64,000 nt of DNA from Adhaeribacter swui (GTDB taxonomy: Bacteria; Bacteroidota; Bacteroidia; Cytophagales; Hymenobacteraceae): assembly GCF_014217805.1 (NCBI RefSeq), contig NZ_CP055156.1, positions 1,990,585-2,054,584 on the forward strand, given 5' to 3'. The notes beneath the pieces were generated by a model. The model saw nothing but the letters and a program-made list of their open reading frames with translations. It had not been told where the DNA came from and ran no database searches. Below are positions 7,939 to 33,946 of the stretch, one piece after another. Position numbers and translations under genes: made by a program. The stretch's first letter is position 1; each line of letters opens with the position of its first letter.

Positions 7939-8046
7939 ATGCCATTTTGCTAAATTATTGATTGTTAGTTTGTTGTGTTTAAATCAACTGGGCCGTTAAT
8001 TAAGATTGTCCGGTTCCGATACAAATAATTGTTCGCTTTTATAACA
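7939..8046 (-). promoter_or_regulatory. Sigma-54-like promoter with tandem 17-bp enhancer elements (TolC)
   Basis: On the minus strand TGGCAT (7944 to 7939) resembles a -24 element; its downstream -12 partner is poor. Exactly 63 bp further upstream are two tandem elements: TGTCCGGTTCCGATACA (8007-8023) and TGTTCGCTTTTATAACA (8030-8046), each with TGT and ACA ends, separated by 6 bp. The same layout with the same 63-bp distance precedes the permease at 22743, and with 65 bp the one at 33726. Confidence 0.55.
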
Positions 8047-8084
8047 CCATACCGGCTTACCACTGGTTTTTTAATTAAAAGCAC

Positions 8085-8121
8085 AAAAAAGCCCCGCCGG
8101 CGAACCAAGCGGGGCTTTTGG
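8085..8121. terminator. GC-rich hairpin with flanking A/T runs
   Basis: GCCCCGC and GCGGGGC form a stem flanked by an A-run on the left and TTTT on the right. It resembles an intrinsic terminator, but no gene clearly ends here. It may insulate the TolC promoter region from transcription through the repeat-rich DNA to its right. Confidence 0.5.
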
Positions 8122-8213
8122 GATTGATTACTGCTATTTTTTAAATTTTATCTAATATCAAATCGTACTAACCAGCTTCTATAGCTATTACTTACAATTA
8201 CAAGTATTTCTTT

Positions 8214-8466
8214 GGAGCCTTTTCAAGTCTCCGTGCGCAGGTTCCATCTTATTTGATAAGGCTGCGTTTGCCTCGTGTCCGGCGGGCCTTGTTTGGACCT
8301 CACCCCCAACCCCTCTCCTATAGGAGAAGGGAGCTTAAAAATAGTTTAGCGAACCTTGGTTCATTTCACTGCGCCATGCCTGTTAACGTCGACACCGGAA
8401 CGCTAGATTCGCAGAATCCGAAAGGTCCTCAACAGCCAAACTGGTGTTAGTTGCGCTTAGCTTCGG
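8214..8466 (+). repeat. Composite intergenic repeat, copy A (partial)
   Basis: This copy runs from GGAGCCTTTTCAAGTCTCC through TTTGCCTCGTGTCCGGCGGG to AACAGCCAAACTGGTGTTAG. It shares these blocks with copies at 8625, 25160, 30834 and 58731. At 8298-8336 it carries an inserted CACCCCCAACCCCTCTCC / GGAGAAGGGAG palindrome. An open frame at 8253-8450 merely reads through the repeat. Confidence 0.7.
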
Positions 8467-8624
8467 CTTTTCTACTTGGATGATGGAGATTAAAGGTTTT
8501 GGTTTAGATAGAATACAGGAAGAAACAGAAATTAGCTTGTCAGCCCTTTTTCTGCGGAAAAAGGACTGACAAGTTATATAATACCATTAATTATCATTTC
8601 TTCAAGTAGCCAAGAACAGTAGCT

Positions 8625-8813
8625 ACTAGCAATTGATACCAGTTCAGCTCTTTCGGACCTTCTAAGGTTCCGGTGCCGGAGGCATTCCGCAGCGGAGCGA
8701 GGAAAGGAAGCTTAGACAGTCCGAAAGAGCTGAACGAGGCCCGCCGGCCATGAGGCAAACAGGTTACTGTTCAAACAAGGTAGTACCAACTCCTGGAGAC
8801 CTGAAAAGGCTCC
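8625..8813 (-). repeat. Composite intergenic repeat, copy B (partial, inverted)
   Basis: This copy is inverted relative to copy A. It contains GGCCCGCCGGCCATGAGGC, AGCGGAGCGAGGAAAGGAAG and GGAGACCTGAAAAGGCTCC. In this copy GTTCAGCTCTTTCGGAC (about 8642-8658) is repeated in inverse orientation (GTCCGAAAGAGCTGAAC, about 8720-8736), so a 17-bp stem encloses the central block. Confidence 0.7.
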
Positions 8814-8866
8814 AAAGAACAACAATCCCGCTACAAAAACTACTTTTACTATAATCAATCAAGGTG

Positions 8867-11299
8867 CTATTCGTTACGCAAAGCATTTACCGGGTTATTG
8901 GCCGCGGCTTTTAACGCGTGAAACGCCACAGTTACCAGGGCAATGAGCAAAGCCAGCACCGTAGCCAAACCAAAAGTCCAGACGGATAAAGACGTGCGGT
9001 AGGCAAAGTCCTGCAGCCATTGGTGCATGCCGTACCAGGCAATGGGCCAGGCCAGCAAGTTGGCGAGCAACACTAATTTTACAAAATCCCGGGAAAGCAA
9101 AGAAACAATGCCCGGTACCGTGGCGCCCAGAACCTTGCGAATGCTGATTTCTTTGGCGCGTTGTTCCATGGCAAACGAGGCCAGACCGTATAAGCCCAAA
9201 CAGGCAATAACAATGGCAATGCCCGAGAAAACCGAAAACAAAGTACCCAGCCGTTGTTCGGATTCGTACAAGCGACCAAATTTTTCGTCGAGGAAAGTAT
9301 ATTCTAAAGGCCGGTGCGGTAAAAACTTTTGCCAGGTTTTCTGGATGTGCGCTAAACCGCTCTGTAATTGGTTGCCCGGCAGTTTAAAAGAAAGATCGTT
9401 GTAGCCGTCGCCGTTAGCCATAATAAACACCAACGGTTTAATTTTTTCGTGCAGCGATTCAAAATGGAAATCCTGCAGCACGCCCACCAGTTTTCCTTTG
9501 CGATTGCCGTATTCGATGTTCCGGCCCAGGGCTTCGCGTGGGTTGGTAAAGCCCAGCATTTTTAAACCGGCTTCGTTCAGCATAAAAGCCATAGAATCGT
9601 CGGTAGGGTATTCTTTCGGGTTAAAGTTGCGGCCGGCTTTGAGTTTAAGCTGGTAAGTGTTCACGAAATAATCGTCAATGGCCAGATATTGAAAAGAAAC
9701 CGGCGAAGGCGCCAGCGAATCGTTTTTCTGAATCCGCAGCGTACCCATGGAGTTTAACAAGCGATCCGAAGGCACGCCTACCGACCGCCCCACGGCACTT
9801 ACCTGCCCCGTTGCCAGCAACTCGTTCCTAAAAGCCTGGTACTTGTCGGCGAGTTCGCTGGTGTAATTGGCCGTAATAATGTGTTCTTTGTTAAAGCCCA
9901 AGGTTTGGTGGCGCAGGTAGTAAAGTTGTTTGTACACCACGGCGGTACACACCAGCAACACCACCGAAATAGCAAATTGCAGCACTACCAGCGATTTGCG
10001 CAGCGATACCGAATTGCGGCCAATGGTTAATTTGCCTTTGAGTACTTTTACCGGTTGAAACGAAGCTAAAAACAAGGCCGGATAAGAACCCGCCAGCAGC
10101 CCCACCAGCAAAGCCAAACCCACCAGCACCAACACCAACGACCAGCTGTTGCCGAAGCTAAAACGCAACTCTTTGCCGATAAAGTTACCCAGTACCGGTA
10201 GAAACACCCATGTAAGCGCCACCGCTAAAACTACGGCCAGCAAAGCAAACAAAATAGATTCGCTCAGAAACTGCCGGATTAAATTAGGCTGGGTAGCCCC
10301 CATCACTTTACGCAAACCAATTTCCTTAGCCCGCAGCGACGAACGCGCCGTGCTTAAGTTCATGAAATTAATGCAGGCAATAAGTAAAATAAACAAGGCC
10401 ACTGCCGAGAACAAGTACACCGTGGTAATATTGCCGTTAGGCTCCAGCTCCGAATCCAGGTGGGAGCGCAGGTGAATGTCGGTGAGTTTTTGCAGAAACA
10501 GCTTGGTCCACGACGAAGGCTTTATCCCATTGCCCGGGTCATCGGTCATGTGGCGGTCCAGAAAAGCCGGGAACTGCGCTTCCAGGTTTTGGGTCGGGTA
10601 GTTTTCGGGTAGCAGCAAGTAGGTGGTAAAAGCGTTGTTGCCCCAGTTGGTGAGTAAGTTTTGTTTGCCGTAAATGGTGCTATCTTCCAGGGTATTAAAC
10701 GATACTAGGAAATCGGGGTGCAGGTGCGCGTTTACCGGGAATGACTCGTACACGCCGGTTACCTTCACGTTAAACTGGTTGTTCAGGCGCAAGACTTTCC
10801 CTACCGCGTTTTGCCCTGGAAAATATTTCTCGGCCATTTTTTCGGTGAGCATCAGGGAGTACGGTTCCGACAGCGCTTGCTCGGGGTTGCCCTGGTGTAC
10901 CGGCACCGTAAAAATTTTAAAAAATGCGGGCTCCGCAAAGAAAACCTCCCGCTCGTTAAAAGCACGTTCCTGGTTTACGGCCAGCAAGGTATTGGTTTGC
11001 AGCGTGCGGGCTATTTGCTGAATATCCGGAAAATCGTTTTTTAACAAGGGCCCGAAAGGCGGCGCCACGTTGGCTAAATGCAAGTTTACGTTACCATCCG
11101 GGTCGGAGAAGTTGCGGGTAACCCGGTAAATGCGGTCGGCATTTTGATGATAGCAATCGTAGCTTAACTCCTGCCGGATGTACAGGGCAATGAGCAAACA
11201 ACAGGTTAACCCCACAGCCAAACCAAACAAATTAATAAAAGTAAAGCCACGATGCCGCCGCATGTTGCGCCAGGCAATTTTAAAATAATTCCGGAGCAT
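8867..11299 (-). CDS. FtsX/MacB-type ABC transporter permease 1
   Basis: An 810-residue inner-membrane protein of the Bacteroidota ABC permease family with two FtsX domains. Layout: membrane helix 1 at about 20-42, a large MacB-like periplasmic domain to about 285, a three-helix FtsX domain starting with the ALFILLIACINFMNLSTARS helix and the cytoplasmic RAKEIGLRKVMGA coupling motif, a fifth helix (about 430-455), a second periplasmic domain, and a C-terminal three-helix FtsX domain with RAKEISIRKVLGA. The C-terminus NPVNALRNE is the family signature. MacB-like permeases export or transmit mechanical force powered by a separate ATPase, which is not in this window. It ends the permease run, 300 bp below the pentapeptide-repeat gene. 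Confidence 0.93.
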   Translation of the reverse strand: MLRNYFKIAWRNMRRHRGFTFINLFGLAVGLTCCLLIALYIRQELSYDCYHQNADRIYRVTRNFSDPDGNVNLHLANVAPPFGPLLKNDFPDIQQIARTLQTNTLLAVNQERAFNEREVFFAEPAFFKIFTVPVHQGNPEQALSEPYSLMLTEKMAEKYFPGQNAVGKVLRLNNQFNVKVTGVYESFPVNAHLHPDFLVSFNTLEDSTIYGKQNLLTNWGNNAFTTYLLLPENYPTQNLEAQFPAFLDRHMTDDPGNGIKPSSWTKLFLQKLTDIHLRSHLDSELEPNGNITTVYLFSAVALFILLIACINFMNLSTARSSLRAKEIGLRKVMGATQPNLIRQFLSESILFALLAVVLAVALTWVFLPVLGNFIGKELRFSFGNSWSLVLVLVGLALLVGLLAGSYPALFLASFQPVKVLKGKLTIGRNSVSLRKSLVVLQFAISVVLLVCTAVVYKQLYYLRHQTLGFNKEHIITANYTSELADKYQAFRNELLATGQVSAVGRSVGVPSDRLLNSMGTLRIQKNDSLAPSPVSFQYLAIDDYFVNTYQLKLKAGRNFNPKEYPTDDSMAFMLNEAGLKMLGFTNPREALGRNIEYGNRKGKLVGVLQDFHFESLHEKIKPLVFIMANGDGYNDLSFKLPGNQLQSGLAHIQKTWQKFLPHRPLEYTFLDEKFGRLYESEQRLGTLFSVFSGIAIVIACLGLYGLASFAMEQRAKEISIRKVLGATVPGIVSLLSRDFVKLVLLANLLAWPIAWYGMHQWLQDFAYRTSLSVWTFGLATVLALLIALVTVAFHALKAAANNPVNALRNE

Positions 11300-11599
11300 A
11301 GTCAGGTTGGTTAAAAGAAATTTTAAAATTTTGTTTTAGCGCCATCACTGGTGCAGGATGGTAGCGCACACCAGTGAAACCATGTATTCTTCTATCGCGA
11401 GCGTCCTCGCTCGTGATAATTATCGTCCGGCCTCTGGCCGGTTGGAATTTGTTGCTGGTTTAAACCTCATCCCCCAACCCCTTCTCCTCCAGGAGAAGGG
11501 GAGCAAAAAAGTCCCTTTTTAAGGAGAGGAACTTTGTTTAGAAATGATTATAAATAACTCCCCTTCTCCTGAAGGAGAAGGGGCCGGGGGGTGAGGCCC
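11300..11599. repeat. Palindromic repeat cluster without a gene
   Basis: This 300-bp gap holds three repeat types. ATCACTGGTG...CACCAGTGA at 11345-11377 is a loose CACTGG hairpin also seen at 24970 and 30543. Positions 11393-11460 carry CGCGAGCGTCCTCGCTCGTG followed by CCGGCCTCTGGCCGG, found again at 49473 and inverted at 49565. Two opposed CCCCTTCTCC...GGAGAAGGGG elements lie at about 11466-11596. No coding sequence was seen. Confidence 0.7.
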
Positions 11600-12403
11600 C
11601 TACTTCTCTTGCCGGTAGGTATCCGTAAATTTCTGGCCGCCCAGTTTGGTGTATTTAAAATCTTTATTGCCGTTAAAGGCCAGCCCTTGCAGTTTTGCTT
11701 CGTCCGAGAAATCGGCGTATTTAAAATTGGCGAAACCGTTAAACTGCGCTTTTTCAAAATTTACTTTACCCGGAAATTTAGCGTATTTAAAATCGGCATC
11801 GTCGGTGAAAACGGCCTGGCTGAAATTGGTGTTGGCCGGGAAGTGCACGTATTTAAAAACCGCGTTATCCGAGAACTTTACTTTGCTAAAATCCGGGGCT
11901 TGCTCAAATTTAGCATATTTAAAAAAGGCTTCGTCGGCAAAAGTACTGCCGGTAAAGGAAACCGCTTCTTTAAACTGCGAATATTTAAATGCCGCGTCTT
12001 GCTGAAAAGTGCAATGCTGAAAGCTTACCTCTTTTTCGAAATTGGTATTATAGATTTCGTTTTTGCTATCGTCTTTACTAAAATACAAAATGCCCTGATC
12101 GGGATTATAGTAGGCCAGCACCTTGCCGGTAAACGTGCAGTTGGTAAACTTTAAGGGAGCCGTAACGGTGCTCACGTATTCTTTCGTCGAAGGATTATCA
12201 TCATCTTTATTTCCACCTTTTTTTAACTGCTTGTTGGCCAGTTGAGTTAAATCCAGGTCCCCGGTAATTTCCACGTTTTGGTAAGTAACGGCCTGTCCGC
12301 GGTTAATCTGCGCAAACACGTCGGCGGCGTTAACGGAAGTCTGAGCGGCAACACCGCCCGAAACAATAATAATCAGCAGGAAGGTAAGAACGACATTTTT
12401 CAT
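11600..12403 (-). CDS. Secreted pentapeptide-repeat-like protein
   Basis: The 267-residue product has a signal peptide (MKNVVLTFLLIIIVSGGVAAQ, cut about residue 21) and a short N-terminal domain. From about residue 120 it has a regular Phe ladder: FKYAKF, FSKVKF, FKYVHF, FSQAVF, FKYAKF, FEKAQF, FKYADF, spaced 11 residues apart. This is the AxF-type variant of pentapeptide repeats, expected to fold as a right-handed quadrilateral beta-helix. FKY alternates with FSx/FEx, giving a 22-residue super-repeat. It lies between two permeases on the same strand (88 bp below permease 2) and is the only non-permease gene in that run, so it may be a periplasmic partner. Its function is unknown. Confidence 0.8.
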   Translation of the reverse strand: MKNVVLTFLLIIIVSGGVAAQTSVNAADVFAQINRGQAVTYQNVEITGDLDLTQLANKQLKKGGNKDDDNPSTKEYVSTVTAPLKFTNCTFTGKVLAYYNPDQGILYFSKDDSKNEIYNTNFEKEVSFQHCTFQQDAAFKYSQFKEAVSFTGSTFADEAFFKYAKFEQAPDFSKVKFSDNAVFKYVHFPANTNFSQAVFTDDADFKYAKFPGKVNFEKAQFNGFANFKYADFSDEAKLQGLAFNGNKDFKYTKLGGQKFTDTYRQEK

Positions 12404-12491
12404 GGAATTGATTATTAGGATGATAGATTGCTTTAACTGCCAAGGGTAACTTCTTCTTTTTTAAAAGGTAACAGCTTTTTAAATTTATTTT

Positions 12492-14891
12492 TTACTCGTT
12501 GCGCAAGGCCTCTACCGGGTTATCCAGGGCGGCTTTTATAGCCTGGAAGCTAATGGTTAAGAAAGCAATTATCAGCGCAGCCCCACCGGCCAAGCCGAAT
12601 ATCCACCAGCTAATAGTAATGCGGTGCGCAAAATCCTGCAGCCACTGTTGCATAAACCACCAGGCTACCGGTGCCGCCACCACAATGGACACCAGAATCA
12701 GTTGCAGGAAATTCTTAGAAACAAGCGTTACAATGCTGAGCGTAGTAGCTCCCAGTACCTTGCGGATGCCGATTTCCTTGGTGCGTTGCGTAATGGTAAA
12801 CGTGGTTAGGCCAAATAATCCCAGACAGGCCAGCAGCACGGTAAGGCCGGTAAATACCCCGAAGATGCTTGCCAGGCGGTCTTCGGCCTGGTACTGGGCG
12901 TTAAAAGCATCGTCCAGGAAAGTATAGGTAAACGGGGTGGTCTGGTCGAACTGCTGGTAGGTTTTCGCCATTCTTTCCAGGACGGTGGGCAGGTTGGTAC
13001 GCGGATTAATGCGCGCGAACAAACACCCGCCTACCGCGCCCCAAGCATTGGCTGTATCGGGGGCCAGTACTAAGCCCAGTGGTTGGGTTTCGTGCACCAG
13101 CGAGCCAAAAACAAAATTGTTTACGACGCCGGCAACTTCAAATCCGTCCCCGCCCGGCATGTTTACCAAACTACCCACCGGGTTAGCCGGCAAGCCTAAT
13201 TTGGCCAGCGCCAGCTCGTTCACCACTATTTTTTGCGGTTGGTTTAATACATCCTGCGATACAGGTGGCACTTTCCACTGGATGCCTAAAGTCGGTACAA
13301 AGTTTTTATCCACGGATAAAACGGGCAGCAGAATATCTTCGGTACTGTTTTTTCCTTTGGCTACCCACATGTCGTACCCCTTGTACATGGGGTAACGGGC
13401 GGTTGCTACCTGGGCCACGCCGGGCAAAGCGGCTATTTCGCGTTTAAACTGTTGGTAATGGTTGCCGAACATTTCGGTTATCGGGATCATTACCACGTTT
13501 TCGCGGTTGATACCGGTTTCGGTGTGCCGGAAATAATACAGCTGCCGGTCGATGACGAGGCCGCAAATCATTAAACCTACCGAGATGCTAAACTGCGCCG
13601 TGGTAAACACCTGGCGAACCCGCACTGCCCCAATTTGCTTGCCCATCTTGCCTTTTAAGGTAGCCACCGGCTGGTAACCCGAAAGCACAAAAGCCGGGTA
13701 ACTGCCGGCCACCAAAATGGTAAAGACCAGCAAGCCAAGCAACAGCAACAACAAGGTAGGGCTGTACAAAAATGCCGTATCAATCTGCAATTGCAGTTTA
13801 TTTAAAAACCAGGGCGTTAGCAAGTAACAAGCGCCGTAGGCCAGACTAAAAGCCAGCACCGCAAACAACGTAGACTCCACATAGAACTGCGCCATGATAA
13901 TTTTGCGGTTGGCGCCAAACACCTGCCGCACGCCAATTTCTTTGGCCCGGATGGTAGAACGAGCGGTGGTTAAGCTCATGTAGTTAATAAGGGCCAGCAG
14001 CAAAATTAAACCTGCTACCAACGGGAATATTTTAATGTATTTGGAATTGGTAAAATCGCCGAAGTTGGCTTTTAAGTGCAGATCCGGCAGGGCGGTAAAA
14101 ACAAACTTTTGCACCTGCGCGAATGAGTCTTCCTGCACCAGCCGGCGCATGGTGTTTTGGAGCTGCGTGGTATCGGCGGCTTGCTTCAGCCGGAAATACG
14201 TGCGGAAATCCCCGCCCCGCAACTGGGTTGATTTTACTAATTCGGCGGTGGCCGGCATTACTTTTAAGCTGGCCACAGAAGCTACAAAGTCAAAGGTAAT
14301 GCTGGAGTTGGAGGGTGCCGGGGCGGCTACGCCGGTTACTTGGTAAGTAAACGTGCTGTCAGTTTTAATGCGTAAGGTTTTACCCACCGGGTTGCTGGTG
14401 CCAAAATACTTGGTTGCCATTTTCTGGGAAATAACCACCGCTAAAGGTTCCCGCAGCACGGTAGCGGGGTTGCCTTGCTTCAACTCAAAAGTGAAAAAGC
14501 GGAAAAAATCGGCGTCGGCGAACAAGAAATTGCTTTCGGTAAAAGTAGCGTTAGCCACCGCCGGATTTTGAATAATAACGCTTTTATGGGGCTGGTGCGT
14601 GCGCATATAACCCGTAACCGCGGGGGTACTTTGCTGCACCGCCGGCCCGGTATAATAACTCATGGTCGGGAACTGCACCGACTCGCCACCCCCCATTTTT
14701 AACTGTTCGTGCACGGCAAAAGTTTGGTTAGCCTGCGCGTGAAACTGGTCGAAGCTGTGTTCGTGGGCCACGTAAATTAGAATCAGCATGCAAACTGTTA
14801 AACCCACCGCCAAGCCGCCCAAGTTAATCAGACTGTAAAGTTTGTGCCGGATTAAATTCCGCCACGCGATTACCAGATAGTTATAGAACAT
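12492..14891 (-). CDS. FtsX/MacB-type ABC transporter permease 2
   Basis: This 799-aa paralogue starts MFYNYLVIAWRNLIRHKLYSLINLGGLAVG and ends NPVEALRNE. It has the usual eight predicted membrane helices and two periplasmic domains. The first coupling motif is RAKEIGVRQVFGANRK, with Gln and Phe where the others have Lys and Ile/Met/Leu, so this copy is somewhat diverged. The second motif (RTKEIGIRKVLGA) is standard. Its start lies only 27 bp after the stop of permease 3, so the two are almost certainly co-transcribed. The pentapeptide-repeat gene follows 88 bp downstream and may be in the same unit. Confidence 0.93.
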   Translation of the reverse strand: MFYNYLVIAWRNLIRHKLYSLINLGGLAVGLTVCMLILIYVAHEHSFDQFHAQANQTFAVHEQLKMGGGESVQFPTMSYYTGPAVQQSTPAVTGYMRTHQPHKSVIIQNPAVANATFTESNFLFADADFFRFFTFELKQGNPATVLREPLAVVISQKMATKYFGTSNPVGKTLRIKTDSTFTYQVTGVAAPAPSNSSITFDFVASVASLKVMPATAELVKSTQLRGGDFRTYFRLKQAADTTQLQNTMRRLVQEDSFAQVQKFVFTALPDLHLKANFGDFTNSKYIKIFPLVAGLILLLALINYMSLTTARSTIRAKEIGVRQVFGANRKIIMAQFYVESTLFAVLAFSLAYGACYLLTPWFLNKLQLQIDTAFLYSPTLLLLLLGLLVFTILVAGSYPAFVLSGYQPVATLKGKMGKQIGAVRVRQVFTTAQFSISVGLMICGLVIDRQLYYFRHTETGINRENVVMIPITEMFGNHYQQFKREIAALPGVAQVATARYPMYKGYDMWVAKGKNSTEDILLPVLSVDKNFVPTLGIQWKVPPVSQDVLNQPQKIVVNELALAKLGLPANPVGSLVNMPGGDGFEVAGVVNNFVFGSLVHETQPLGLVLAPDTANAWGAVGGCLFARINPRTNLPTVLERMAKTYQQFDQTTPFTYTFLDDAFNAQYQAEDRLASIFGVFTGLTVLLACLGLFGLTTFTITQRTKEIGIRKVLGATTLSIVTLVSKNFLQLILVSIVVAAPVAWWFMQQWLQDFAHRITISWWIFGLAGGAALIIAFLTISFQAIKAALDNPVEALRNE

Positions 14892-14918
14892 AAATCGTCA
14901 TTTTTTTAAAAATTTAAC

Positions 14919-17369: not shown

Positions 17370-17383
17370 ATTTTTAGTCTTTT

Positions 17384-17516
17384 GAACCTTGATTTATGGG
17401 ATTAAGGGATTGCCTGGATTGATAAAATTTAAAAAATTGAACTCCCGAAATAAATTGATTTCCTTTTAACACCTTCATCCTGATAATCCCATAATCCTAC
17501 GAATCAAGGTTCCGAC
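17384..17516. repeat. GAACCTTGATT...AATCAAGGTTC intergenic repeat
   Basis: The element begins GAACCTTGATTTATGGGATT and ends AATCCTACGAATCAAGGTTC, so its ends are inverted copies. Its right end lies directly against the stop codon of permease 4. Related copies are at 19943-20170, 20285-20325, 25590-25632 and 31335-31371; all but the 19943-20170 copy also lie directly after a permease stop codon. Confidence 0.6.
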
Positions 17517-22743: not shown

Positions 22744-22789
22744 AGCCGAAGCGATTTAATAGACCGGTACAAAATACCGCGTAATAAAA

Positions 22790-22897
22790 ATGCCACGATT
22801 ATAAAACACTGAAATTTAGATTGTTATATAGGTGTAAACTGTTCTTAAATTTAAAAATGTCCGGTTTTGATACAATATATTGTTCGATTCTGAAACA
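22790..22897 (-). promoter_or_regulatory. Sigma-54-like promoter with tandem 17-bp enhancer elements (permease 5)
   Basis: On the minus strand TGGCAT (22795 to 22790) is followed after five bases by TTAC, close to the -24/-12 form TGGCAC-N5-TTGC. Upstream by 63 bp are TGTCCGGTTTTGATACA (22858-22874), 6 bp, and TGTTCGATTCTGAAACA (22881-22897). Each has TGT and ACA ends and looks like a binding site for a dimeric activator. Confidence 0.6.
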
Positions 22898-24105: not shown

Positions 24106-24289
24106 AAAATACTGAGAGCACGGTTTGTCGCGACATGAAAGTGGTATGCAAGCTATTGGTTAATTAGACTTTATTAACATAAATTCAGTCCGAAGATTAA
24201 TTACTCCGCAGTTTCGCACTTCGTTAAATTACGAATTGTTAGTACTAAGCACAGAATAAAAAAGATTAACGAAAATCGTAAACTTAGTT

Positions 24290-24917: not shown

Positions 24918-25159
24918 AAACAGGACGCTTCAGGCAACTTTCAAGAGCGAATAAAAAGCTCCCTTAAACTAGCGCCAGTGTTCAGCGTAGCGTCACTGGT
25001 GCTTCATGAGCAAAAGGAAGTCTCCTGACTCACGTAAAACAAATTAGCAGATATTGCCGCCAGTCGGGAGACAAGCTTTTGTTATGAAGACACAAGTCTC
25101 GCTACGCTACGGCTTGCGCCAAGGTTGTCTTTAAGATTTCAACTTATCATCAAACAGTA
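24918..25159. repeat. Intergenic DNA with CACTGG hairpin repeat
   Basis: No gene. GCGCCAGTGTTCAGCGTAGC and the following TCACTGGTG (24972-25001), with AAGGAAGTCTCCTGACTC after it, match the block at 30543-30620 and, loosely, 11345-11377. A TGAAGACACAA string at about 25085 belongs to the hairpin family that is well formed at 42313-42336. Confidence 0.5.
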
Positions 25160-25515
25160 GCTAAATGCTACTAACACCAGTTTGGCTGTTGAGGGCCTTC
25201 TAAGGTTCCGGTTTTGCGCAGCAAAATTCCTCAGCGGAGCGAGGAAAGGAAGCTTAGACCAGCCCGAAAGAGTCAAACGAGGCCCGCCGGCCAAGAGGCA
25301 AACTGGTTACTGTTCAAGCTAGATAGCACCATTACCTAGAAAGATGAAATCTTTCTAAAAGCAAGCAGTGGAAAACTCTTATTCTTAAATTATTCTAAAA
25401 GAATTTAGCTTCTAATAGCTTGTTAAAGCAGATGATTAATCCGGACGCCAGCCGGAGTAAAGTCACAGACTTTACATTATAAGTAGACCCAAGTTTTGGA
25501 AACTTACGCCAGAAA
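25160..25515 (-). repeat. Composite intergenic repeat, copy C (full, inverted)
   Basis: Reading on the minus strand: a degenerate GGCGTAAGTTTCCAAAACTT hairpin (about 25486-25514), then the AAAGTCTGTGACTTTACTCC block (25426-25475), about 95 bp of spacer, then the main block (25160-25330) with GGCCGGCGGGCCTCGTTT and CCTTCCTTTCCTCGCTCCG. The order is the same as in copies D and E. The remaining DNA to permease 6 (25516-25633) ends in a degenerate GAACCTTGATT-type repeat. Confidence 0.7.
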
Positions 25516-25633
25516 ATAGAAGATGACCATTACTTAAAATCTAAGCGGAGTCTCTAATTCTGTTAAAAAGATGGAAAATCAAAAATAACTGAATCACGAG
25601 GAGCCTTTAATCGCATAAATCCTGGTTCGGATA

Positions 25634-28063
25634 TCATTCATTACGCAAAGCTTTCACCGGTTTAGTAAAAGCAGCCCGGATAGATTGATAGCTGATGGTA
25701 AGCACCGCAATGCAAACGGCTAGTATCCCGGCAATCAAGAATACATCCCAAGTGATAGAAACGCGGTACTCATAATCTTGCAGCCATTTTTGCATACCGA
25801 ACCAGGCAATAGGCACTGCCAGGAGTAAGGCAATGAACACTAATTTTAAAAAATTCTGAGTCAGTAACCGGAAAATGTTAAACGTAGAAGCCCCTAGCAC
25901 CAGCCGGATGCTGATTTCTTTGCTGCGTTGCTCCACCATAAATGCCGATAAAGCAAACAAGCCCAGGCAAGCCACGATTATAGCCAGTATCGCAAAACTG
26001 CTAAAGATCTGGCCCATGTGCTGCACGTCTTCGTGCATGCGGGCGTAAGACTCGTCGAGGAAGCTAAACCGGATAGGTTGGTGCGGCGCTACGGTTTTCC
26101 AAACGGTGGTTAGGTCTTGCAGCAGGTTAGCCATTTGCGGGGTATTTACTTTTACCGCCACTACCGACGGGCTATTGCCTAACACCAGGCACAAGGGTTC
26201 GATATTTTGTTTAAACGTTTCGTAATGAAAGTCTTCAATTACCCCGATGATCGTCCAGGTTTGGCCGCCATTGGTAATGCGTTGACCAATGGGTTGTGCA
26301 AAATTAAATTTTTGAATTAGCGCTTGGTTTACTACTACGGCTTGGGCGTCGGAGGCCAGGTCGCGGGAGAAATCCTGTCCAGCGGTAATTTTCATGCCCA
26401 GGGTTTTCACGTAATCCTGGTCTACTTCCCAAATCTGACCATTAATAGAACTTTCTTCGGTAACTTTTCCCTCTTTCCAGAAAGAGTTGCCATTGCGTTT
26501 GGTATCTTTCACGGGCAGGTAATCGCTTACGCTCACACTTTTTACCTCAGGTAAGCGCAGGAGTTCGGTTTTTAAAGTTTTTATCTTATTGCCTAACGTA
26601 TTGGTGCCTTGCAGTAAAATCACTTGGTCTTTCTCAAAGCCAATTTCTTTATTCAGAATATAATTCATTTGCCGGTAGATGATAAAAGTACCGACAATTA
26701 GAACAATAGAAGTAGTAAATTGAAAAACCACTAATAAACCGCGGGTGCCGGAGCTTTTGCTACCGCGGCTGACAGCACCTTTTAATACGCTAACCGGTTG
26801 AAAAGCCGACAAGTAAAATGCCGGATACAATCCTGCCACTACACCTACAACCACAGCCGCAGAAAGTAAAGTAGGCAGCAGCCACCAGGCCTGCCACGGA
26901 ATAACCAGCGCTTTAGCGGCTAGTTGGTTAAAATAAGGCAGTAAAAGCCAGGCCAGGATAAGCCCAACAGCAAAAGAAATAACGCTGTATAAAAGCGACT
27001 CGGTTAAGAATTGTTTAACTAAACTGCTACGGTAAGAGCCTAACACTTTGCGTAAGCCTACTTCTTTGGCCCGGTTGGCCGATTTAGCCGTAGACAGGTT
27101 AATGAAGTTAATGCAGGCAATTATTAAAATAAAGGCCGCAATAGCGCCAAACAAATACACAAACCGAATATCGCCGTACTTAGACCAGGTGTCCCGGATG
27201 CCGTTGGAGTACAGGTGAATATCCAGAAGCGGCTGCAGCTTAAACGTAATATTTTTAACAATGTTTGCCGCCTCTACGTTACCATTCGCCACCATTTGCG
27301 GCACCATGTTTTTCTCAATAACGGAGATTAATTTTTTCGTTAATTGCTTGGCATCTGCTCCTGGCCGCAGCAATACATAAGTCAGGTAATTGGTGTTTTG
27401 CCAATTGGTTTGTTCGCCCGGGAAAAATTCCAGCCCGGTTAAAGTAAGTAAAAAATCGTACTGCAGGTGCGAGGTAGCCGGCATGTCGGCCATTACGCCG
27501 CCAATTTTGTAAGGCTTTTCGGTGTTGTCGTTAATGATTAAAGTTTTGCCAACCGGGTTTTCGTTCGGGAAAAATTTATCGGCTTTTGTTTTAGAGATAA
27601 CAATGGTGTTAGGTTCCGCGAGAGCGTGCTGCCGGTCGCCGTATACCATGGGCAGTTGCAGCAAATCTATTAAATCCTGATCGACAAAGGCTACGTGTTC
27701 TTCGTAGGAGTTTTCCAGCCTATCGCTGCGCCTAATTTGGGCGTTGCCGGCCCCAAAAAGTTCGCTGGCAATTAAGCGACCTGCTTTTTCAATTTCCGGG
27801 AAATCGGCTTTTAACGCTTTGGCAAAGGGAGCCTGAAAATGAACACTTTTTATAATCTCACCCTGGTTGTTAAAATCTATTGCCACCCGGTAAATGCGCT
27901 CCGCATGCGGCACGTGGCGGTCGTAGCGCAGCTCGTCGCGGATGTATAAAGAAATTAAAAAACAGGCCGCAATGCCTAACGCAAAGCCGCCCACTTTAAT
28001 GGCCGCATACATTTTTTGCTTCGTTAAAGAACGCCAGGCAATTTTAAAATAGTTTTTTAACAT
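25634..28063 (-). CDS. FtsX/MacB-type ABC transporter permease 6
   Basis: An 809-aa copy and one of the more diverged ones: it starts MLKNYFKIAWRSLTKQKMYAAIKVGGFALG, where the others have RNL.RHK.., and ends FTKPVKALRNE with Lys instead of Asn/Glu in the tail signature. The coupling motifs are RAKEVGLRKVLGSYRSS and RSKEISIRLVLGA, the second with Leu replacing Lys at the motif centre. The two-by-four membrane helix layout is unchanged. Permease 7 ends 35 bp upstream of its start, so permeases 7 and 6 form one unit. Confidence 0.93.
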   Translation of the reverse strand: MLKNYFKIAWRSLTKQKMYAAIKVGGFALGIAACFLISLYIRDELRYDRHVPHAERIYRVAIDFNNQGEIIKSVHFQAPFAKALKADFPEIEKAGRLIASELFGAGNAQIRRSDRLENSYEEHVAFVDQDLIDLLQLPMVYGDRQHALAEPNTIVISKTKADKFFPNENPVGKTLIINDNTEKPYKIGGVMADMPATSHLQYDFLLTLTGLEFFPGEQTNWQNTNYLTYVLLRPGADAKQLTKKLISVIEKNMVPQMVANGNVEAANIVKNITFKLQPLLDIHLYSNGIRDTWSKYGDIRFVYLFGAIAAFILIIACINFINLSTAKSANRAKEVGLRKVLGSYRSSLVKQFLTESLLYSVISFAVGLILAWLLLPYFNQLAAKALVIPWQAWWLLPTLLSAAVVVGVVAGLYPAFYLSAFQPVSVLKGAVSRGSKSSGTRGLLVVFQFTTSIVLIVGTFIIYRQMNYILNKEIGFEKDQVILLQGTNTLGNKIKTLKTELLRLPEVKSVSVSDYLPVKDTKRNGNSFWKEGKVTEESSINGQIWEVDQDYVKTLGMKITAGQDFSRDLASDAQAVVVNQALIQKFNFAQPIGQRITNGGQTWTIIGVIEDFHYETFKQNIEPLCLVLGNSPSVVAVKVNTPQMANLLQDLTTVWKTVAPHQPIRFSFLDESYARMHEDVQHMGQIFSSFAILAIIVACLGLFALSAFMVEQRSKEISIRLVLGASTFNIFRLLTQNFLKLVFIALLLAVPIAWFGMQKWLQDYEYRVSITWDVFLIAGILAVCIAVLTISYQSIRAAFTKPVKALRNE

Positions 28064-28098
28064 AACCGTACTTACAAAAATTTAAAAATCTACTGTTC

Positions 28099-30495
28099 CT
28101 ACTCGTCGCGTAGGGCATTTACCGGGTTAGCCACCGCTACTTTTAAAGCCTGGAAACTTACCGTTACAATCGCAATGAGCAAGGCCATAACGCCGGCTAC
28201 AATAAATATCAGCGCGCTGAGTTCTACGCGGTAGGTAAAATCCTGCAACCATTTGTGCATGGCCCACCAGGCTAATGGCCAGGCCAGAATATTGGCCAGC
28301 AATACTAATTTTAAAAAATCCTGAGAGAGCAAAGTCACCACGTTGCTCACCGAAGCGCCCAATACTTTGCGGATGCCAATTTCTTTGCGGCGTTGCTGGG
28401 TGGTGTAAGAAGCCAAACCTAATAAACCGAGGCAAGCAATAGAAATAGCCAGTACGGAGAATACTGCCAGTATTTGCGCCTGCTTTTGTTCGCTCTTATA
28501 CAACTTGCCAAACGACTCGTCGAGGAACGTATATTGAAACGGATATTTTGGTGCGGTTTGATTGAACACTTTTTCGATGGCCGCCAGGCTGGATTTTGGG
28601 TTGCCCGCGGCTAGCCGGATAGCCACCAAGCGGCGATCGGGGCGCATAGCTATTACCAGGGGTTCAATGGTTTCTTTCAGCGAAGAAAAATGAAAATCCT
28701 GCACTACCCCAGTTACTTTGCGGCGACGTGGCGCTTGTTGTTCAGCCCAATGGCTGGGATCCACAAATTCTTTCCCGATAGCTTCCTGCGGCGTCCAGCC
28801 TAAGTTTTTAACCGCGGTTTCGTTCAGTAAAATGGCCGCTACCGAATCCGTAGCAAAAGATTTTGAAAAATTACGGCCTGCTATTAGTTTAATGCCGAGC
28901 GTTGGCAAATAATTTTCATCGGAAAAAGCCGTCCGGAAACTCCAGGTCTCGTTGGGTTTATCGATTACGTTAAATACATACCTATCGTGGAAACCACCCG
29001 GTTCCCCCGACATTACCGATACCGATTGAACATCCGGCAGTTGCTGTAAACGATTAATAAAAGCGCGGCTCCGGCTGTAAATTTCTTCGTTATCCAACGG
29101 TATGGTAATCACATGTTCTTTACTGAACCCTAAATTTTTGTTCTGCACGTAATCCATCTGCCGGAAAATAACTACGGTGCCAATCATCAGAAAAATTGAC
29201 AGGCTAAACTGCGATACTACCAAGGCTTTCCGTAGTAACGGATGACCCGCACTGGAAGCAAGTCGCCCGCGTAAAACTTTTACCGGCTCAAACGACGATA
29301 AAAAGAAAGCCGGATAACTGCCCGCCAGCAAACCCACTCCCAGGGCAACGCCCACTAAAAACACGTATAACCAAGGATTAGTAAAAGGAATAGCTAAGTG
29401 CTTTTCGGCGAATGTGTTAAAATAAGGTAATATTAAGATAATTAAACCCAGCGATAAAGCTACCGCGATAAACGTGAGCAAGGTAGATTCGCTTAAAAAC
29501 TGGCTGATTAAATGTTGCTTGTATGCGCCCAAAACCTTGCGCACGCCCACTTCTTTCGCGCGGCCAGCCGAACGGGCTGAAGCCAGATTCATAAAATTAA
29601 TGCAGGCAATGAGCAAGATAAAAACGGCAATCGCCGAAAAAATATACACGTTGCTTTTATTACCCTGCTCCGCAAAATCGAACTGCGTGTTGGTATCCAG
29701 GTGAATGGCGTGGAGCGGTTGTAGTTCCAGGGTCATATTCTGCCCTTCTTTTTTAGTTTCGGAGCCCCGGTGTTTCTCCATGAAAGCGGGGAATTGTGCG
29801 AGCAGGTTTTCGGGATTGGTTTTCTCTTCCAGCAGCACGTAGGTAAACATCGAATTATTATTCCAGCGCTGGAACCACTCCTGGCTTTCGTAATCTTTAA
29901 TCGAAAATACAAAATCAAATTTCAGATGCGAGTTATCGGGCACGTTGGCCACTACCCCAGCTACTTTGCACGTTTGGTTTTTATCCAGGGTCAGGAGTTT
30001 GCCCATCGGGTTTTCGGAACCGAAATACTTTTGAGCAATGGCTTGGCTGATGACTACATTATCCGGGTCGGCAAGGGCCTGGCGCGGATCGCCTTGCACC
30101 AGCGGAAAAGAAAACATTGTTAGAAATTCAGGATCCGTAATAAATACCCGTTCTTCTTTAAAAGTTTTGTCCTGGTACGAAAACAAGGCATTCGTGGACA
30201 TTACCCGTACGGCTGCTTTTACATCGCTGGGAAAATCAGTGAGCAGCGCCGGCGCATATGGCCCCGACACGTACGGTATCTTGGTCTTATCGCCGTTCAT
30301 GTTACCAACCCGCAGCACCCGGTAAATGCGGTCGCCCTGCGCGTGGAATTTATCGTAACTCAACTCGTTCTGCACAAATAAAAATATCAGCAAACAACAG
30401 GTTATACCCAGCGTTAGCCCGACTACGTTGATGGCGGTATAAAACTTCTGCCGCAGCAAATTCCGGTAAGCAAGTTTTAAGTAGTTGTAAAGCAT
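28099..30495 (-). CDS. FtsX/MacB-type ABC transporter permease 7
   Basis: The frame extends to 30627, but the first 44 residues would be repeat-derived, and the ATG at 30495 gives the family start MLYNYLKLAYRNLLRQKFYTAINVVGLTLG (798 aa). It ends NPVNALRDE. Coupling motifs are RAKEVGVRKVLGAYKQHL and RRKEIGIRKVLGASVSN. The first periplasmic domain is similar to that of permease 4. It leads a two-gene unit with permease 6. No sigma-54-like element was found in the 873 bp before it; that gap holds repeat copy D. Confidence 0.93.
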   Translation of the reverse strand: MLYNYLKLAYRNLLRQKFYTAINVVGLTLGITCCLLIFLFVQNELSYDKFHAQGDRIYRVLRVGNMNGDKTKIPYVSGPYAPALLTDFPSDVKAAVRVMSTNALFSYQDKTFKEERVFITDPEFLTMFSFPLVQGDPRQALADPDNVVISQAIAQKYFGSENPMGKLLTLDKNQTCKVAGVVANVPDNSHLKFDFVFSIKDYESQEWFQRWNNNSMFTYVLLEEKTNPENLLAQFPAFMEKHRGSETKKEGQNMTLELQPLHAIHLDTNTQFDFAEQGNKSNVYIFSAIAVFILLIACINFMNLASARSAGRAKEVGVRKVLGAYKQHLISQFLSESTLLTFIAVALSLGLIILILPYFNTFAEKHLAIPFTNPWLYVFLVGVALGVGLLAGSYPAFFLSSFEPVKVLRGRLASSAGHPLLRKALVVSQFSLSIFLMIGTVVIFRQMDYVQNKNLGFSKEHVITIPLDNEEIYSRSRAFINRLQQLPDVQSVSVMSGEPGGFHDRYVFNVIDKPNETWSFRTAFSDENYLPTLGIKLIAGRNFSKSFATDSVAAILLNETAVKNLGWTPQEAIGKEFVDPSHWAEQQAPRRRKVTGVVQDFHFSSLKETIEPLVIAMRPDRRLVAIRLAAGNPKSSLAAIEKVFNQTAPKYPFQYTFLDESFGKLYKSEQKQAQILAVFSVLAISIACLGLLGLASYTTQQRRKEIGIRKVLGASVSNVVTLLSQDFLKLVLLANILAWPLAWWAMHKWLQDFTYRVELSALIFIVAGVMALLIAIVTVSFQALKVAVANPVNALRDE

Positions 30496-30542
30496 GAGAT
30501 GGATTGTTAATTTTTTAAATTTTTCTAATTTTAGTAAGTCGG

Positions 30543-30620
30543 TTACTGATTTCATTACACTGGCGTCCGTGTTTCGCGTAGTGGCACTGGTGGCTTTTTG
30601 ACAAGAAGTTAGTCTCCTGC
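30543..30620 (+). repeat. CACTGG hairpin repeat
   Basis: ACACTGGCGTCCGTGTTTCG...GTGGCACTGGTGGC, followed by AAGTTAGTCTCCTGCC, matches the block after the HepT gene at 24972. It explains the false N-terminal extension of permease 7. Confidence 0.5.
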
Positions 30621-30691
30621 CTGGCATATCTGCTTTTGTAATTGGTTTCTTTTAATTCTTTGGAGTCTTTTCAAGTCTCCAGGCTCTTTCT

Positions 30692-31036
30692 CTGGTGCAA
30701 GTTTTTAAACTTGTACCTACCAATAAGGTAAAGTCTGTAACTTTACTCCGGCTTTAGCCGGAACCTTGATCTGCTTATTATAAGCTGCTAAAAAGTAAAT
30801 TTTTAAAAATTTAGTATTCTACTGTACTTACTTGGAGCCTGTTCCAGCCTCCATTTACTGGTGCTATCTAACTGGCTAACTACAAGTTTTGCCTCGTGGC
30901 CGGCGGGCCTCGTTTGGCTCTCTCGCACGGGCTAGCCTTCCTTTCCTCGACTCCGTCTGCGGAATTTTGCTGCGCAAAACCGGAACCCTAGCAGGTGCTC
31001 AATAGCCAAACTGGTGTCATTTGCTTTTAGCTTCTG
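30692..31036 (+). repeat. Composite intergenic repeat, copy D (full)
   Basis: A hairpin (TGGTGCAAGTTTTTAAACTT, about 30694-30719), then AAAGTCTGTAACTTTACTCC with a GGCTTTAGCC hairpin (30727-30776), a 57-bp spacer, then GGAGCCTGTTCCAGCCTCC (30834) through GCCTCGTGGCCGGCGGGCC and CCTTCCTTTCCTCG to AATAGCCAAACTGGTGTC. The element contains no open frame of its own. Confidence 0.7.
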
Positions 31037-31368
31037 TCTGATGCTTGACTACCATTTTTCTTGTTTTTCTAGCTGACATCTGTGTATATTTCATTGCTAG
31101 TGCCTTTTCGCAGTTATTGTTTTTCAGATTTATCTTGTCAAATCAAACCAATCTAGTCTAATCAGTTGCAGAAAGTCCCCCTTTGGAGGGGGTAGGGGGA
31201 GGATAAACAGTATCAGATTAGTGACCACAATCATTCCTTGCCTTCTCAATCCTCAATCACCCACTTAAATAATTGTCGTTTTCCCCTCTAAGACTTGCGC
31301 AAGTTCCATCAAATCTAATAACATCTGAATCCAGGTAATCCTCTAATCCTATAAATCAAAGTTCCGGC
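31037..31368. other. Intergenic DNA before permease 8 stop
   Basis: No gene. It contains a GTCCCCCTTTGGAGGGGG palindrome (about 31169-31186), of the same class as the CCCCTTCTCC elements elsewhere, and a GAACCTTGATT-type half repeat (AATCCTATAAATCAAAGTTCC) ending at the stop codon. Confidence 0.5.
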
Positions 31369-33726
31369 CTACTCGCTGCGCAGGGAGTTTACCGGGTTGG
31401 CGACGGCACTGCGTACAGCCTGGAAGCTTACTGTTATAAGCGCAATGCCCAAAGTAGCTACCCCGGCCAAGGCAAAAATCCACCAGCCTAAATCGGCGCG
31501 GAATGCAAAGTTTTGCAGCCATTTATTCATGGCCCACCAGGCGAGCGGCCAGGCCAACACATTGGCTAGTAACACTAATTTTAAAAAATCACGGGAGAGC
31601 AAGGCCACAATGTTAAATACGGAGGCTCCCAGCACTTTGCGCACGCCTATTTCTTTGGTGCGCTGCTCAGCGGTAAATAAAGCCAAGCCAAATAAGCCTA
31701 AACAAGAAATAAAAATAGCCAAGCCCGCAAAACAGTTAATCAGGGTGCCAATAGTTATTTCGCTCCGGTATTGTTGTTCAAAAACTTCGTCCAGAAACTT
31801 GTACTCGAACGGGTAACCCGGATTATAGGTGCGCATGGCTTTTTCCAGACTGGCCAAGGCTTCTTTGGTTTTGCCGGGTTCGGTGCGTACCAGCAAAATG
31901 CCTTCGCCGCGGGGTTTTGGTAACGGCAGCATAATCAAGGGCTTAATGGGTTCGTGCAGCGATTGCATATGAAAGTTTTTCGTAACGCCAATTATTTTCC
32001 CTTTGCCATTCCAGAACGATACGGTTTGCCCTACCGGGTTTTGCAGGCCCATAATGTCGGCGGCGGCTTCGTTTATAATGTAAGTGCTGCTGTCACTAGC
32101 AAAATCATAGGAAAAAGACCGGCCTTCTTTTAATGGAATATTCATGGTTCTGAAGTAGTCGTAATCCACAAATACGCCGGAAACAGAAGAAGCTTCTTTT
32201 TCGGATTTGCCGGGCCATTGCAAGTCTGCCGACGTGTTATTAATATCCAGGGGAAGGTTGCTAGTGGCCGTAACCCATTTAATACCCGGGGTTTGTAATA
32301 TTTCGTTTTTAAAAGCTTTTATATTTTTATCGAGATTGCCCTCTACGCCAATAGAAATTACATTTTCCCGATCAAAACCTAAGTTACTGTTCTGAATAAA
32401 GGAAATCTGGCGGTGAATAACCAGGGTGCCTACAATCAGAACAAGCGACAAGGTAAATTGAAAAACGACCAGGCCTTTGCGCAACAGCAACGATTTAAAA
32501 CCAAACTTAATGCTGCCTTTCAATACTTTTACTGGCTCCAGCGACGATAAAAACAAGGCCGGATAACTGCCCGCAACAAGGCCGGTAATTACGGCAATGC
32601 TTATTAAGGATAAGGAGAACAAAGGGCTGGAATAATCGATAGCAATGGTTTTGCCGGTAACCTGGTTAAAAACAGGCAACAATAAAATTACCCCTATCAC
32701 CGAGAGAAGTACCGCCAGTAAAGCTGTGAGCAAAGCCTCGCCCATAAATTGCCCCACCAGCAACGATCGGGCTGCTCCGATTACTTTCCGGATGCCTACT
32801 TCTTTCGAGCGTTTGGCGGAGCGGGCCGTAGCCAGGTTCATAAAATTAATGCAGGCAATCAGTAAAATAAATACGGCTACCACGGTAAACAAGCGCACGT
32901 ACGCAATGCGGCCGCCATCGGGTTTACCGGCTTTGTAGGCGTATAAATGCATATCCGCCAGGGGTTGCAGGAAAAAATCAGCTTTTTGTTCCGGATGATT
33001 TTGCGGCATGTATTTCCGGATTTGCCCATCTACTTTGGCAAAATCCGCATCGGGCCGCAGTTGCAGAAAGGTGTTAAAACTAAAGTTACCCCAGGTTTTT
33101 GCCCAATCATTCTTTTTAATAAAAATTTCTAGTGGCAACACAAAATCAAACTGCAAAGAAGAGTTCTTGGGCATATCCTGCATTACACCGGTTACCCGCA
33201 CATTGCTCTGATCTTTGATGTGAATAATTTGCCCGAGCGCCGGCTGGTTCCCGAAATACTTGCGCGCTAAAGATTGAGAGATCACCACCGCATCCGGGGC
33301 AGTTAAGGCAGTTTTGGGGTCCCCTTCTACCAGCGGAAAAGAGAACATCTGAAATAGCTCAGGACCAACAAACCGGCCTTTGGTTTCTTTGTTGATTTTG
33401 CCATTTGCTTCGAATAACACGCCCAGATCCCATTCGGTCATCTGTACCACGTGGGTAATTTCCGGAATTTCTTTGCGCAATGCATCGGCTAAGGGTTGCG
33501 GCGAATTGGCGCCAGTCTGGATTTCGCCCCAATTTAAATTAGCCATAATCCGGTACAAGTGCGGTCCATTTTTGTGGAACCGGTTATAGCTTAATTCGTC
33601 CTGCACCCACAGCATAATTAAAATACTACAGGTCATTCCCAAAGCCAAGCCCATAATGTTTATAAAAGAAAAAGCTTTATGGCGGAGCAGGTTTCGCAAC
33701 GCAATTTTCAGATAGTTCTGGAGCAT
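31369..33726 (-). CDS. FtsX/MacB-type ABC transporter permease 8
   Basis: This shortest paralogue (785 aa) starts MLQNYLKIALRNLLRHKAFSFINIMGLALG and ends NPVNSLRSE. Coupling motifs are RSKEVGIRKVIGAARSLL and RTKEIGVRKVLGASVFN. The first periplasmic domain is about 20 residues shorter than in the other copies. It heads the whole array and has a sigma-54-like control region at 33838-33946. About 870 bp of repeats separate it from permease 7, so it is probably its own transcript. Confidence 0.93.
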   Translation of the reverse strand: MLQNYLKIALRNLLRHKAFSFINIMGLALGMTCSILIMLWVQDELSYNRFHKNGPHLYRIMANLNWGEIQTGANSPQPLADALRKEIPEITHVVQMTEWDLGVLFEANGKINKETKGRFVGPELFQMFSFPLVEGDPKTALTAPDAVVISQSLARKYFGNQPALGQIIHIKDQSNVRVTGVMQDMPKNSSLQFDFVLPLEIFIKKNDWAKTWGNFSFNTFLQLRPDADFAKVDGQIRKYMPQNHPEQKADFFLQPLADMHLYAYKAGKPDGGRIAYVRLFTVVAVFILLIACINFMNLATARSAKRSKEVGIRKVIGAARSLLVGQFMGEALLTALLAVLLSVIGVILLLPVFNQVTGKTIAIDYSSPLFSLSLISIAVITGLVAGSYPALFLSSLEPVKVLKGSIKFGFKSLLLRKGLVVFQFTLSLVLIVGTLVIHRQISFIQNSNLGFDRENVISIGVEGNLDKNIKAFKNEILQTPGIKWVTATSNLPLDINNTSADLQWPGKSEKEASSVSGVFVDYDYFRTMNIPLKEGRSFSYDFASDSSTYIINEAAADIMGLQNPVGQTVSFWNGKGKIIGVTKNFHMQSLHEPIKPLIMLPLPKPRGEGILLVRTEPGKTKEALASLEKAMRTYNPGYPFEYKFLDEVFEQQYRSEITIGTLINCFAGLAIFISCLGLFGLALFTAEQRTKEIGVRKVLGASVFNIVALLSRDFLKLVLLANVLAWPLAWWAMNKWLQNFAFRADLGWWIFALAGVATLGIALITVSFQAVRSAVANPVNSLRSE

Positions 33727-33837
33727 ATCCGCGGAATATAAAATTTAAAAAAATTCGCAATTCTAAAATTTAGAAGGCTACTGCCCAGGAGCATCTGGCA
33801 AATAGTAACTCCTCCCGATAATATTAAAATAAGAAAG

Positions 33838-33946
33838 ATGCCATTGTCGTAAATTATTGATTATGAGTAATGTTATGCGATTAAAGTGGGCCGTTTTTTT
33901 TAAATTTTGTCCGATTTTGATACAGTTTTTGTCCGTTTTTAGCACA
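33838..33946 (-). promoter_or_regulatory. Sigma-54-like promoter with tandem 17-bp enhancer elements (permease 8)
   Basis: TGGCAT on the minus strand (33843 to 33838) is followed after five bases by TTAT. Upstream by 65 bp are TGTCCGATTTTGATACA (33908-33924), 5 bp, and TGTCCGTTTTTAGCACA (33930-33946). Between box and enhancers lies TAAATTATTGATT, also present in the TolC region. Confidence 0.6.

Follow-up and report, generated by a model that had tools for sequence, protein, structure and literature searches.

Three upstream regions in a 64,000-nucleotide stretch of the Adhaeribacter swui genome (RefSeq assembly GCF_014217805.1, contig NZ_CP055156.1; hereafter "the window") share one layout on the minus strand. 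Two 17-bp sites, one far from and one near the promoter, are followed by 62 to 64 bp and then by TGGCAT, five bases, and a T-rich box. The regions precede the gene of a TolC-family channel and two runs of permease genes. From computational evidence, and with a probability of roughly 0.86, we propose that all three are sigma-54 promoters, each with a tandem enhancer and served by an NtrC-type regulator like the one encoded at locus L079, which would co-control an outer membrane channel, an adaptor, an ATPase, and permeases. An earlier note on this DNA had described the common layout, and its sequences and positions proved accurate. In the features below, coordinates are those of the window; coordinates with the prefix C3 refer to the contig of the 6.2-Mb genome on which the window is C3:1,990,585-2,054,584.

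8030-8046, minus strand: putative far activator site of the TolC promoter, 3 mismatches to the 17-bp consensus
8007-8023, minus strand: putative near activator site of the TolC promoter, TGTATCGGAACCGGACA, exact consensus match
7951-7963, minus strand: IHF-like site AATCAATAATTTA of the TolC promoter, 6 bp from TGG, exact WATCARNNNNTTR
7930-7944, minus strand: sigma-54-type promoter of TolC, TGGCAT-N5-TGTA (TGGCAT at 7944-7939), 62 bp from the near site
6365-7879, minus strand: TolC-family outer membrane efflux protein (Pfam OEP, 3.5e-59; start codon uncertain)
22881-22897, minus strand: putative far activator site of permease run 2, 1 mismatch to the consensus
22858-22874, minus strand: putative near activator site of permease run 2, exact consensus match
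22781-22795, minus strand: sigma-54-type promoter of permease run 2, TGGCAT-N5-TTAC (TGGCAT at 22795-22790), 62-bp spacer
20329-22743, minus strand: MacB_PCD/FtsX permease, first gene of run 2 (Pfam, open reading frames [ORFs])
17517-19925, 14919-17369, 12492-14891, and 8867-11299, minus strand: later permeases of run 2 (ORFs)
33930-33946, minus strand: putative far activator site of permease run 1, 3 mismatches to the consensus
33908-33924, minus strand: putative near activator site of permease run 1, exact consensus match
33850-33862, minus strand: IHF-like site AATCAATAATTTA of permease run 1, 6 bp from TGG, consensus match
33829-33843, minus strand: sigma-54-type promoter of permease run 1, TGGCAT-N5-TTAT (TGGCAT at 33843-33838), 64-bp spacer
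31369-33726, minus strand: MacB_PCD/FtsX permease, first gene of run 1 (Pfam)
28099-30627 and 25634-28063, minus strand: later permeases of run 1 (ORFs)

In these sequences two 17-bp sites lie two helical turns from each other, and an IHF-like site (in two regions), TGGCAT, and a T-rich -12 box follow. The near 17-mers match the full consensus, TGTYCGNTTYYGATACA, exactly in all three regions and lie 62, 62, and 64 bp from TGG (TolC, run 2, run 1). The far 17-mers keep only TGTYCGNTT...ACA, with 3, 1, and 3 mismatches, so that the consensus pairs reported earlier stand for the near copies and not for the far ones. With up to 3 mismatches, the single 17-bp pattern occurs seven times in the window against 2.3 expected; the distinctive feature is the pairing and the exact copies, not the single pattern. 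All three promoters have TGGCAY as their -24 box. Two of the three carry an IHF-like site between the activator sites and the promoter, matching the IHF consensus WATCARNNNNTTR, and the one at TolC sits at one of two positions that are fixed in other genomes. No exact IHF consensus was found in the spacer of run 2.

Genome-wide, the strict tandem pattern occurs three times, always in the window, and not at all in a reversed control. A looser search (site, 45 to 75 bp, TGGYA) gave 10 matches, eight of which precede transporter or LiaF/LiaG-like genes; the other two are read as chance without closer study, the control having given two. There are thus eight promoters of one type, the three in the window and five outside it:

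C3:1.679 Mb: element-headed permease run
C3:1.707 Mb: element-headed operon of an HlyD adaptor, a lumazine-binding-like protein, an ABC ATPase, and three permeases
C3:1.929 Mb: element-headed run of four permeases
C3:1.695 and 1.941 Mb: two element-headed toastrack genes (DUF4097), nearest to NCBIfam LiaG and LiaF, below cut-off

This set fits the previous suggestion that one two-component system controls TolC and both permease runs. The genome has 22 permeases whose open frames reach 790 aa or more, and 18 of them fall in three clusters as same-strand runs headed by an element promoter. The first permease of run 1 is nearest the NCBIfam models ADOP and DarB, under both cut-offs. The runs in the window, which contain gaps of 742 and 404 bp, may be read as single transcripts. 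All components of a MacAB-TolC-type exporter are present in separate clusters (MacB_PCD/FtsX permease, HlyD adaptor, ATPase, OEP channel), and we infer that they act together. The rpoN gene, whose absence would have spoken against a sigma-54 promoter, occurs once (one Sigma54_DBD match, 5.5e-58), and there is a single PF00216 match, which does not distinguish IHF from HU. Scanning the genome for the canonical TGGCAYN5TTGCW gave nine matches, as many as in the reversed control, and two of the nine look real, given their upstream palindromes.

The element recurs in relatives. In 200 genomes of the family, the strict tandem pattern gave 27 matches in 12 genomes (control 0), namely, all eight sampled genomes of the window's genus and four of another genus. 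Although the search did not require it, TGGCAY follows 53 to 64 bp downstream in 27 of 27, with gaps of 62 bp (17 matches), 63 bp (6), 64 bp (2), 53 bp (1), and 54 bp (1). Pairs of sites lacking a TGGCA box, which the earlier note had named as counterevidence, were therefore not seen among these family matches. Adding the five A. swui promoters outside the window (TGGYA required) gave 32 family promoters. We dropped two (L020 and L036) that are identical to others over 20 bases, leaving 30 chosen without any -12 requirement; 29 have TGGCAY and one has TGGTAT. The IHF consensus is present in 12 of the 32, and 21 of 24 elements in relatives lead into genes matching the TolC, HlyD, or permease genes of A. 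swui.

We then scanned GTDB species genomes for the site followed, after 45 to 75 bp, by TGGCAYN5TT, and obtained at least 119 stretches of up to 8 kb each; all counts for these stretches are among the matches listed. About 103 come from Bacteroidota, and the others include Latescibacterota, a Calditrichota (Caldithrix), a Gemmatimonadota, and one Acinetobacter. The gaps of 123 site-TGG pairs fall at 50 to 54 bp (64 pairs), 62 to 67 bp (25), 72 to 75 bp (33), and 45 bp (1), with none between; the lone 45-bp gap, from the Acinetobacter stretch (L198), is probably a chance match. Periodicity is strongest at 11.0 bp (R = 0.80), as expected of helical phasing, and the probability of the gap classes is 10^-36.7, a value that rests on gap windows picked after the data were seen. 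We rejected the 72-to-75-bp gaps as a third spacing; they belong to the far copy in promoters of the 52-bp class (the match scores 10.4/13 at +22 versus 5.2 at +28), which leaves two distances of the near site from TGG, about 52 and about 63 bp. Where a second copy stands farther up, its commonest distance from the near one is 22 bp (37 of 74 passing the score bar). The IHF consensus is found in 35 of the 119 spacers, compared with a mean of 1.35 and a maximum of 5 in 300 single-letter shuffles, and most spacers have no exact copy. All 36 IHF matches lie at fixed places from TGG, either 17 to 19 bp away (reverse, 29) or 5 to 6 bp away (forward, 7). Seven loci had no downstream ORF under the rule used; the 112 next genes scanned include MacB_PCD (53), HlyD_3 (35), ABC_tran (3), and OEP (2).

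The same stretches point to the activator. A motif search in their ORFs, rather than a family model, identified an enhancer-binding protein (EBP) gene in 47 of the 119, divergent from the element in 46 of the 47 (within 450 bp in 45, 2.1 kb away in one). The A. swui genome has 12 matches to the sigma-54 activator domain, eight of them strong and one of these eight interrupted by a stop. As best match in this genome, 44 of the 47 EBPs have L079, two L078, and one L073. The L079 EBP (C3:1,557,782-1,559,158; Response_reg, Sigma54_activat, and HTH_8, i.e., receiver, sigma-54 AAA+, and Fis-type domains) is, judged from sequence, the best candidate regulator. In Adhaeribacter rhizoryzae, a relative 81% identical to L079 is encoded divergently beside an HlyD operon, with the element between them. 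Together with rpoN, the helical phasing, and the IHF-like site, the linked EBP genes strongly support the idea, put forward from the window alone, that sigma-54 and an NtrC-type activator use these regions. The accompanying expectation of a regulator gene nearby failed, L079 lying about 431 kb from the window edge. Its loop reads GSFTDA, and GAFTGA was not found in it; the loops of the 47 EBPs are GAFTDA, GAYTDA, or GSFTDA in 41, GAFTGA or GSFTGA in three, and not read in three. In NorR, replacing the second glycine of GAFTGA by aspartate (G266D) gives escape from the repressing domain (PMC2941729). An aspartate at the equivalent place is the natural state in most activators seen here.

Kinases lie beside these EBPs, and 37 of the 38 kinase proteins, the A. 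swui one included among the 38, have HATPase_c. Hydropathy gives two hydrophobic segments separated by 0 to 10 residues in all 38 (9 residues in the A. swui kinase), and both segments pass a stricter bar in 23. Two hydrophobic segments with a very short loop are the pattern of intramembrane-sensing kinases (PMC3023708), and by hydropathy all 38 have the linker of under about 12 residues that defines it. A mechanism can be proposed on this basis. The kinase, with its two membrane helices and very short outside loop, would sense a change at the cell envelope and phosphorylate the regulator at C3:1,557,782-1,559,158, which would then bind the tandem 17-bp sites. IHF or HU would bend the DNA between sites and promoter, the ATPase ring of the regulator would open the sigma-54 polymerase complex, and channel, adaptor, ATPase, and permeases would be made at the same time. 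Such a system would most likely serve an envelope-stress or export response.

Several observations weigh against this proposal. In A. swui, L079 lies apart from the genes it would control, and the region above it yielded no such element. When the search was begun from the EBP, the element was present in only 3 of the 14 best relatives (about 1.5 kb either side), and 72 of the 119 stretches, each up to 8 kb, have no EBP gene. About one in six scanned next genes is something else, and three family elements are not closely followed by a matching transporter gene. Related species are, moreover, non-independent samples. Finally, G is found at promoter position 13 in 0 of the 30 family promoters, so the canonical sigma-54 -12 GC (TTGC) is absent, and we call the promoter a variant.

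The variant is a consistent one. The 30 promoters have T at position 11 (30) and mostly at position 12 (24), A at position 13 in 19, and C or T at position 14 in 26. The T-rich -12 position described before is a regular property of these promoters and more than a poor fit to TTGC. Within the class, TGGCATYTTATTGTATA is common to the TolC promoter (7944-7930) and the three closest TolC promoters (L018, L020, and L038) and differs from the permease promoters at the -12 box; the more distant TolC promoter L017 differs from it. For a sister class we searched 100 family genomes with a 16-bp site, TGTTCGNNANCGNACA, again without a -12 requirement, and obtained 36 matches in 30 genomes (control 0). 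Of these, 30 loci were read. Position 13 is G in 30 of 30, or in 29 of 29 without L255, whose gap of 75 is out of phase and which is probably a chance match. Position 14 is mostly T or G, and TTGC is therefore rare there too. Within the genus, position 13 is G in 4/4 promoters of the 16-bp class versus 0/26 of the 17-bp class (Fisher 3.6e-5; related genomes). The first count had been 6/6 versus 0/26, and we left out L215 and L218, which had been found by asking for TTGC. These two TTGC promoters (C3:1,102,164 and C3:5,251,866) precede genes for paralogous 99-aa proteins with signal-like starts and have 16-bp-type sites at 62 and 64 bp; since they occur in the same genome, its single RpoN appears to serve both kinds.

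Farther afield, TTGC is found in 2 of 103 Bacteroidota promoters versus 11 of 16 promoters that are outside Bacteroidota or unclear, and 15 of those 16 have G at position 13. In the Bacteroidota set (TT required), position 13 is G in 2 of the 46 promoters whose stretch also contains an EBP gene versus 25 of the 57 others; position 13 counts are not independent of ancestry. We rejected a simple coevolution of activator loop and -12 box, in which GAFTDA would go with loss of GC: four Latescibacterota relatives have GAFTDA yet TTGC promoters, L078 has GAYTDA with TTG promoters, and L150 has GSFTGA with TTTA. We tentatively raise another possibility, which we regard as somewhat doubtful. The -12 box would follow the activator's site (17-bp without G, mostly TTAY; 16-bp with G), its letters being a specificity code, which either the activator loop or the remodelled sigma-54 complex would read and which would stop sister two-component systems from firing one another's promoters. 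The split would run through one bacterial family and also through single genomes having one sigma-54 gene, a number established for the window's genome. These findings suggest that a whole class of sigma-54 promoters can lose its -12 G even as a sister class in the same genus retains it. Searches with the usual consensus would have difficulty finding G-less promoters, and the split also prompts one to ask whether the activator reads the -12 box.

Two further EBP loci deserve description. L078 (C3:237,001-248,000) contains, at 3638-9288, a sister pair of EBP and kinase genes; a permease gene is divergent from it, and there are 16-bp palindromes and two TGGCAT promoters that are likewise divergent. 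L075 (C3:1,840,001-1,851,000) has, at 5125-6468, an EBP gene with an in-frame stop that adjoins a 1498-aa ORF; by eye, the L073 EBP seems close to the first part of this gene.

How else might the regions be read? They could be sigma-54 promoters answering to another activator of the genome, such as L078 (C3:241,995-243,371), L077 (C3:696.6 kb), or L070 (C3:1,714,806). L078 and L079 have the recognition-helix stretch ITRTALYRR in common, and L078 adjoins a permease with similar palindromes; its neighboring sites, however, are 16 bp long, with a different left half and a different -12 box. L070, near two sites and about 8 kb from one element, had been suspected for that proximity and was dropped because no EBP in the listed stretches matches it best. 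L077 is likewise the best match of none, and with 44 of 47 best matches going to L079 we consider another activator unlikely. A larger departure would make the 17-mers operators of some other regulator and TGGCAT no sigma-54 box, with the Bacteroidota housekeeping sigma factor transcribing these genes. The family promoters' lack of GC at -12 would suit it. Against it are TGGYAY, found in 30 of 30 and helically phased with the site, the fixed places of the IHF-like site, the EBP gene neighbors, the TTGC in 11 of the 16 promoters outside Bacteroidota or unclear, and the flatness of positions 16 to 23 in 67 Bacteroidota promoters (each at most 0.29 bits), which leave it very improbable. That the three regions are recent, functionless copies of one stretch we hardly credit at all: the TolC and 33.8-kb regions do have extra letters in common (ACGGCCCA and AATCAATAATTTA), but the spacers otherwise differ among the regions, other genera and phyla have the elements too, their sites, spacing, and boxes preserved, and the helical phasing already contradicts such copying. 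A sigma-54 promoter with a tandem enhancer, probably served by an L079-type regulator, accounts best for these observations.

Among known systems, NtrC/NifA-type sigma-54 promoters (reviewed in PMC7057263) likewise have paired upstream sites, an IHF-type site, -24 TGGCA, and a REC-AAA-Fis activator. The review describes looping that is often IHF-assisted and contacts of activator subunits with the DNA from -20 to -12. The present promoters differ in having sites only about 62 bp above TGG, compared with about 100 to 150 bp upstream in that review (PMC7057263), a -12 box that is mostly TTAY in the window's family (TTTC is common in other Bacteroidota) rather than TTGC, and a mostly GAFTDA-like activator loop. 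A 2025 study (PMC12316311) reported sigma-54 links to COG0577 FtsX-like permeases in Bacteroidia, Opitutia, and gamma-Proteobacteria, calling this the first evidence for that family, and so predicted the same permease class under sigma-54. Because it already reports COG0577 enrichment in Bacteroidia, the broad link is known; for COG0577 its available text is silent on an activator, on enhancer and IHF sites, on a TolC/MacA regulon, and on a -12 variant, and its authors ascribe to their method a limited capacity for promoters far from TGGCACN5-7TTGCT. It was the one directly relevant paper in the literature searched, where, as far as its available text goes, we did not find the regulon described. 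Added here are the activator, the sites, the regulon, and the promoter classes. For the export-permease arrays of many Bacteroidota they supply a candidate activator with its likely binding site, together with a bend site and promoters, and they predict which scattered genes rise together.

The BceRS envelope-stress module (PMC3023708) also combines a kinase of two membrane helices and a short loop with FtsX-type permeases. The system proposed here differs from BceRS and LiaRS in its NtrC-type regulator with sigma-54, its partly unlinked genes, and the involvement of TolC and MacA. The LiaF/LiaG-like genes are the likeness to LiaRS. In a Bce module, a BceR-type response regulator, which is OmpR-type, is encoded beside the BceAB transporter genes; the regulator here is NtrC-type, so this is not a Bce module. 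Compared with MacAB-TolC and DarBCD, the HlyD adaptor is nearest DarC, the ATPase nearest DarD, and a permease near ADOP and DarB, alongside a TolC-family channel, but none of the A. swui proteins reaches the NCBIfam cut-off for DarB, DarC, or DarD. A further difference is that 18 permeases of about 800 aa lie in the three clusters of A. swui, in which one adaptor-ATPase operon was seen.

Some further observations may be mentioned. In three loci of one genus (L023, L024, and L025), the same tandem element has no matching transporter close downstream, and a 137-aa ORF starts about 620 bp on. A pentapeptide-repeat protein is encoded inside permease run 2 (window 11600-12403), and a gene for a DpnII-MboI type restriction enzyme lies close to TolC (window 4849-5607).

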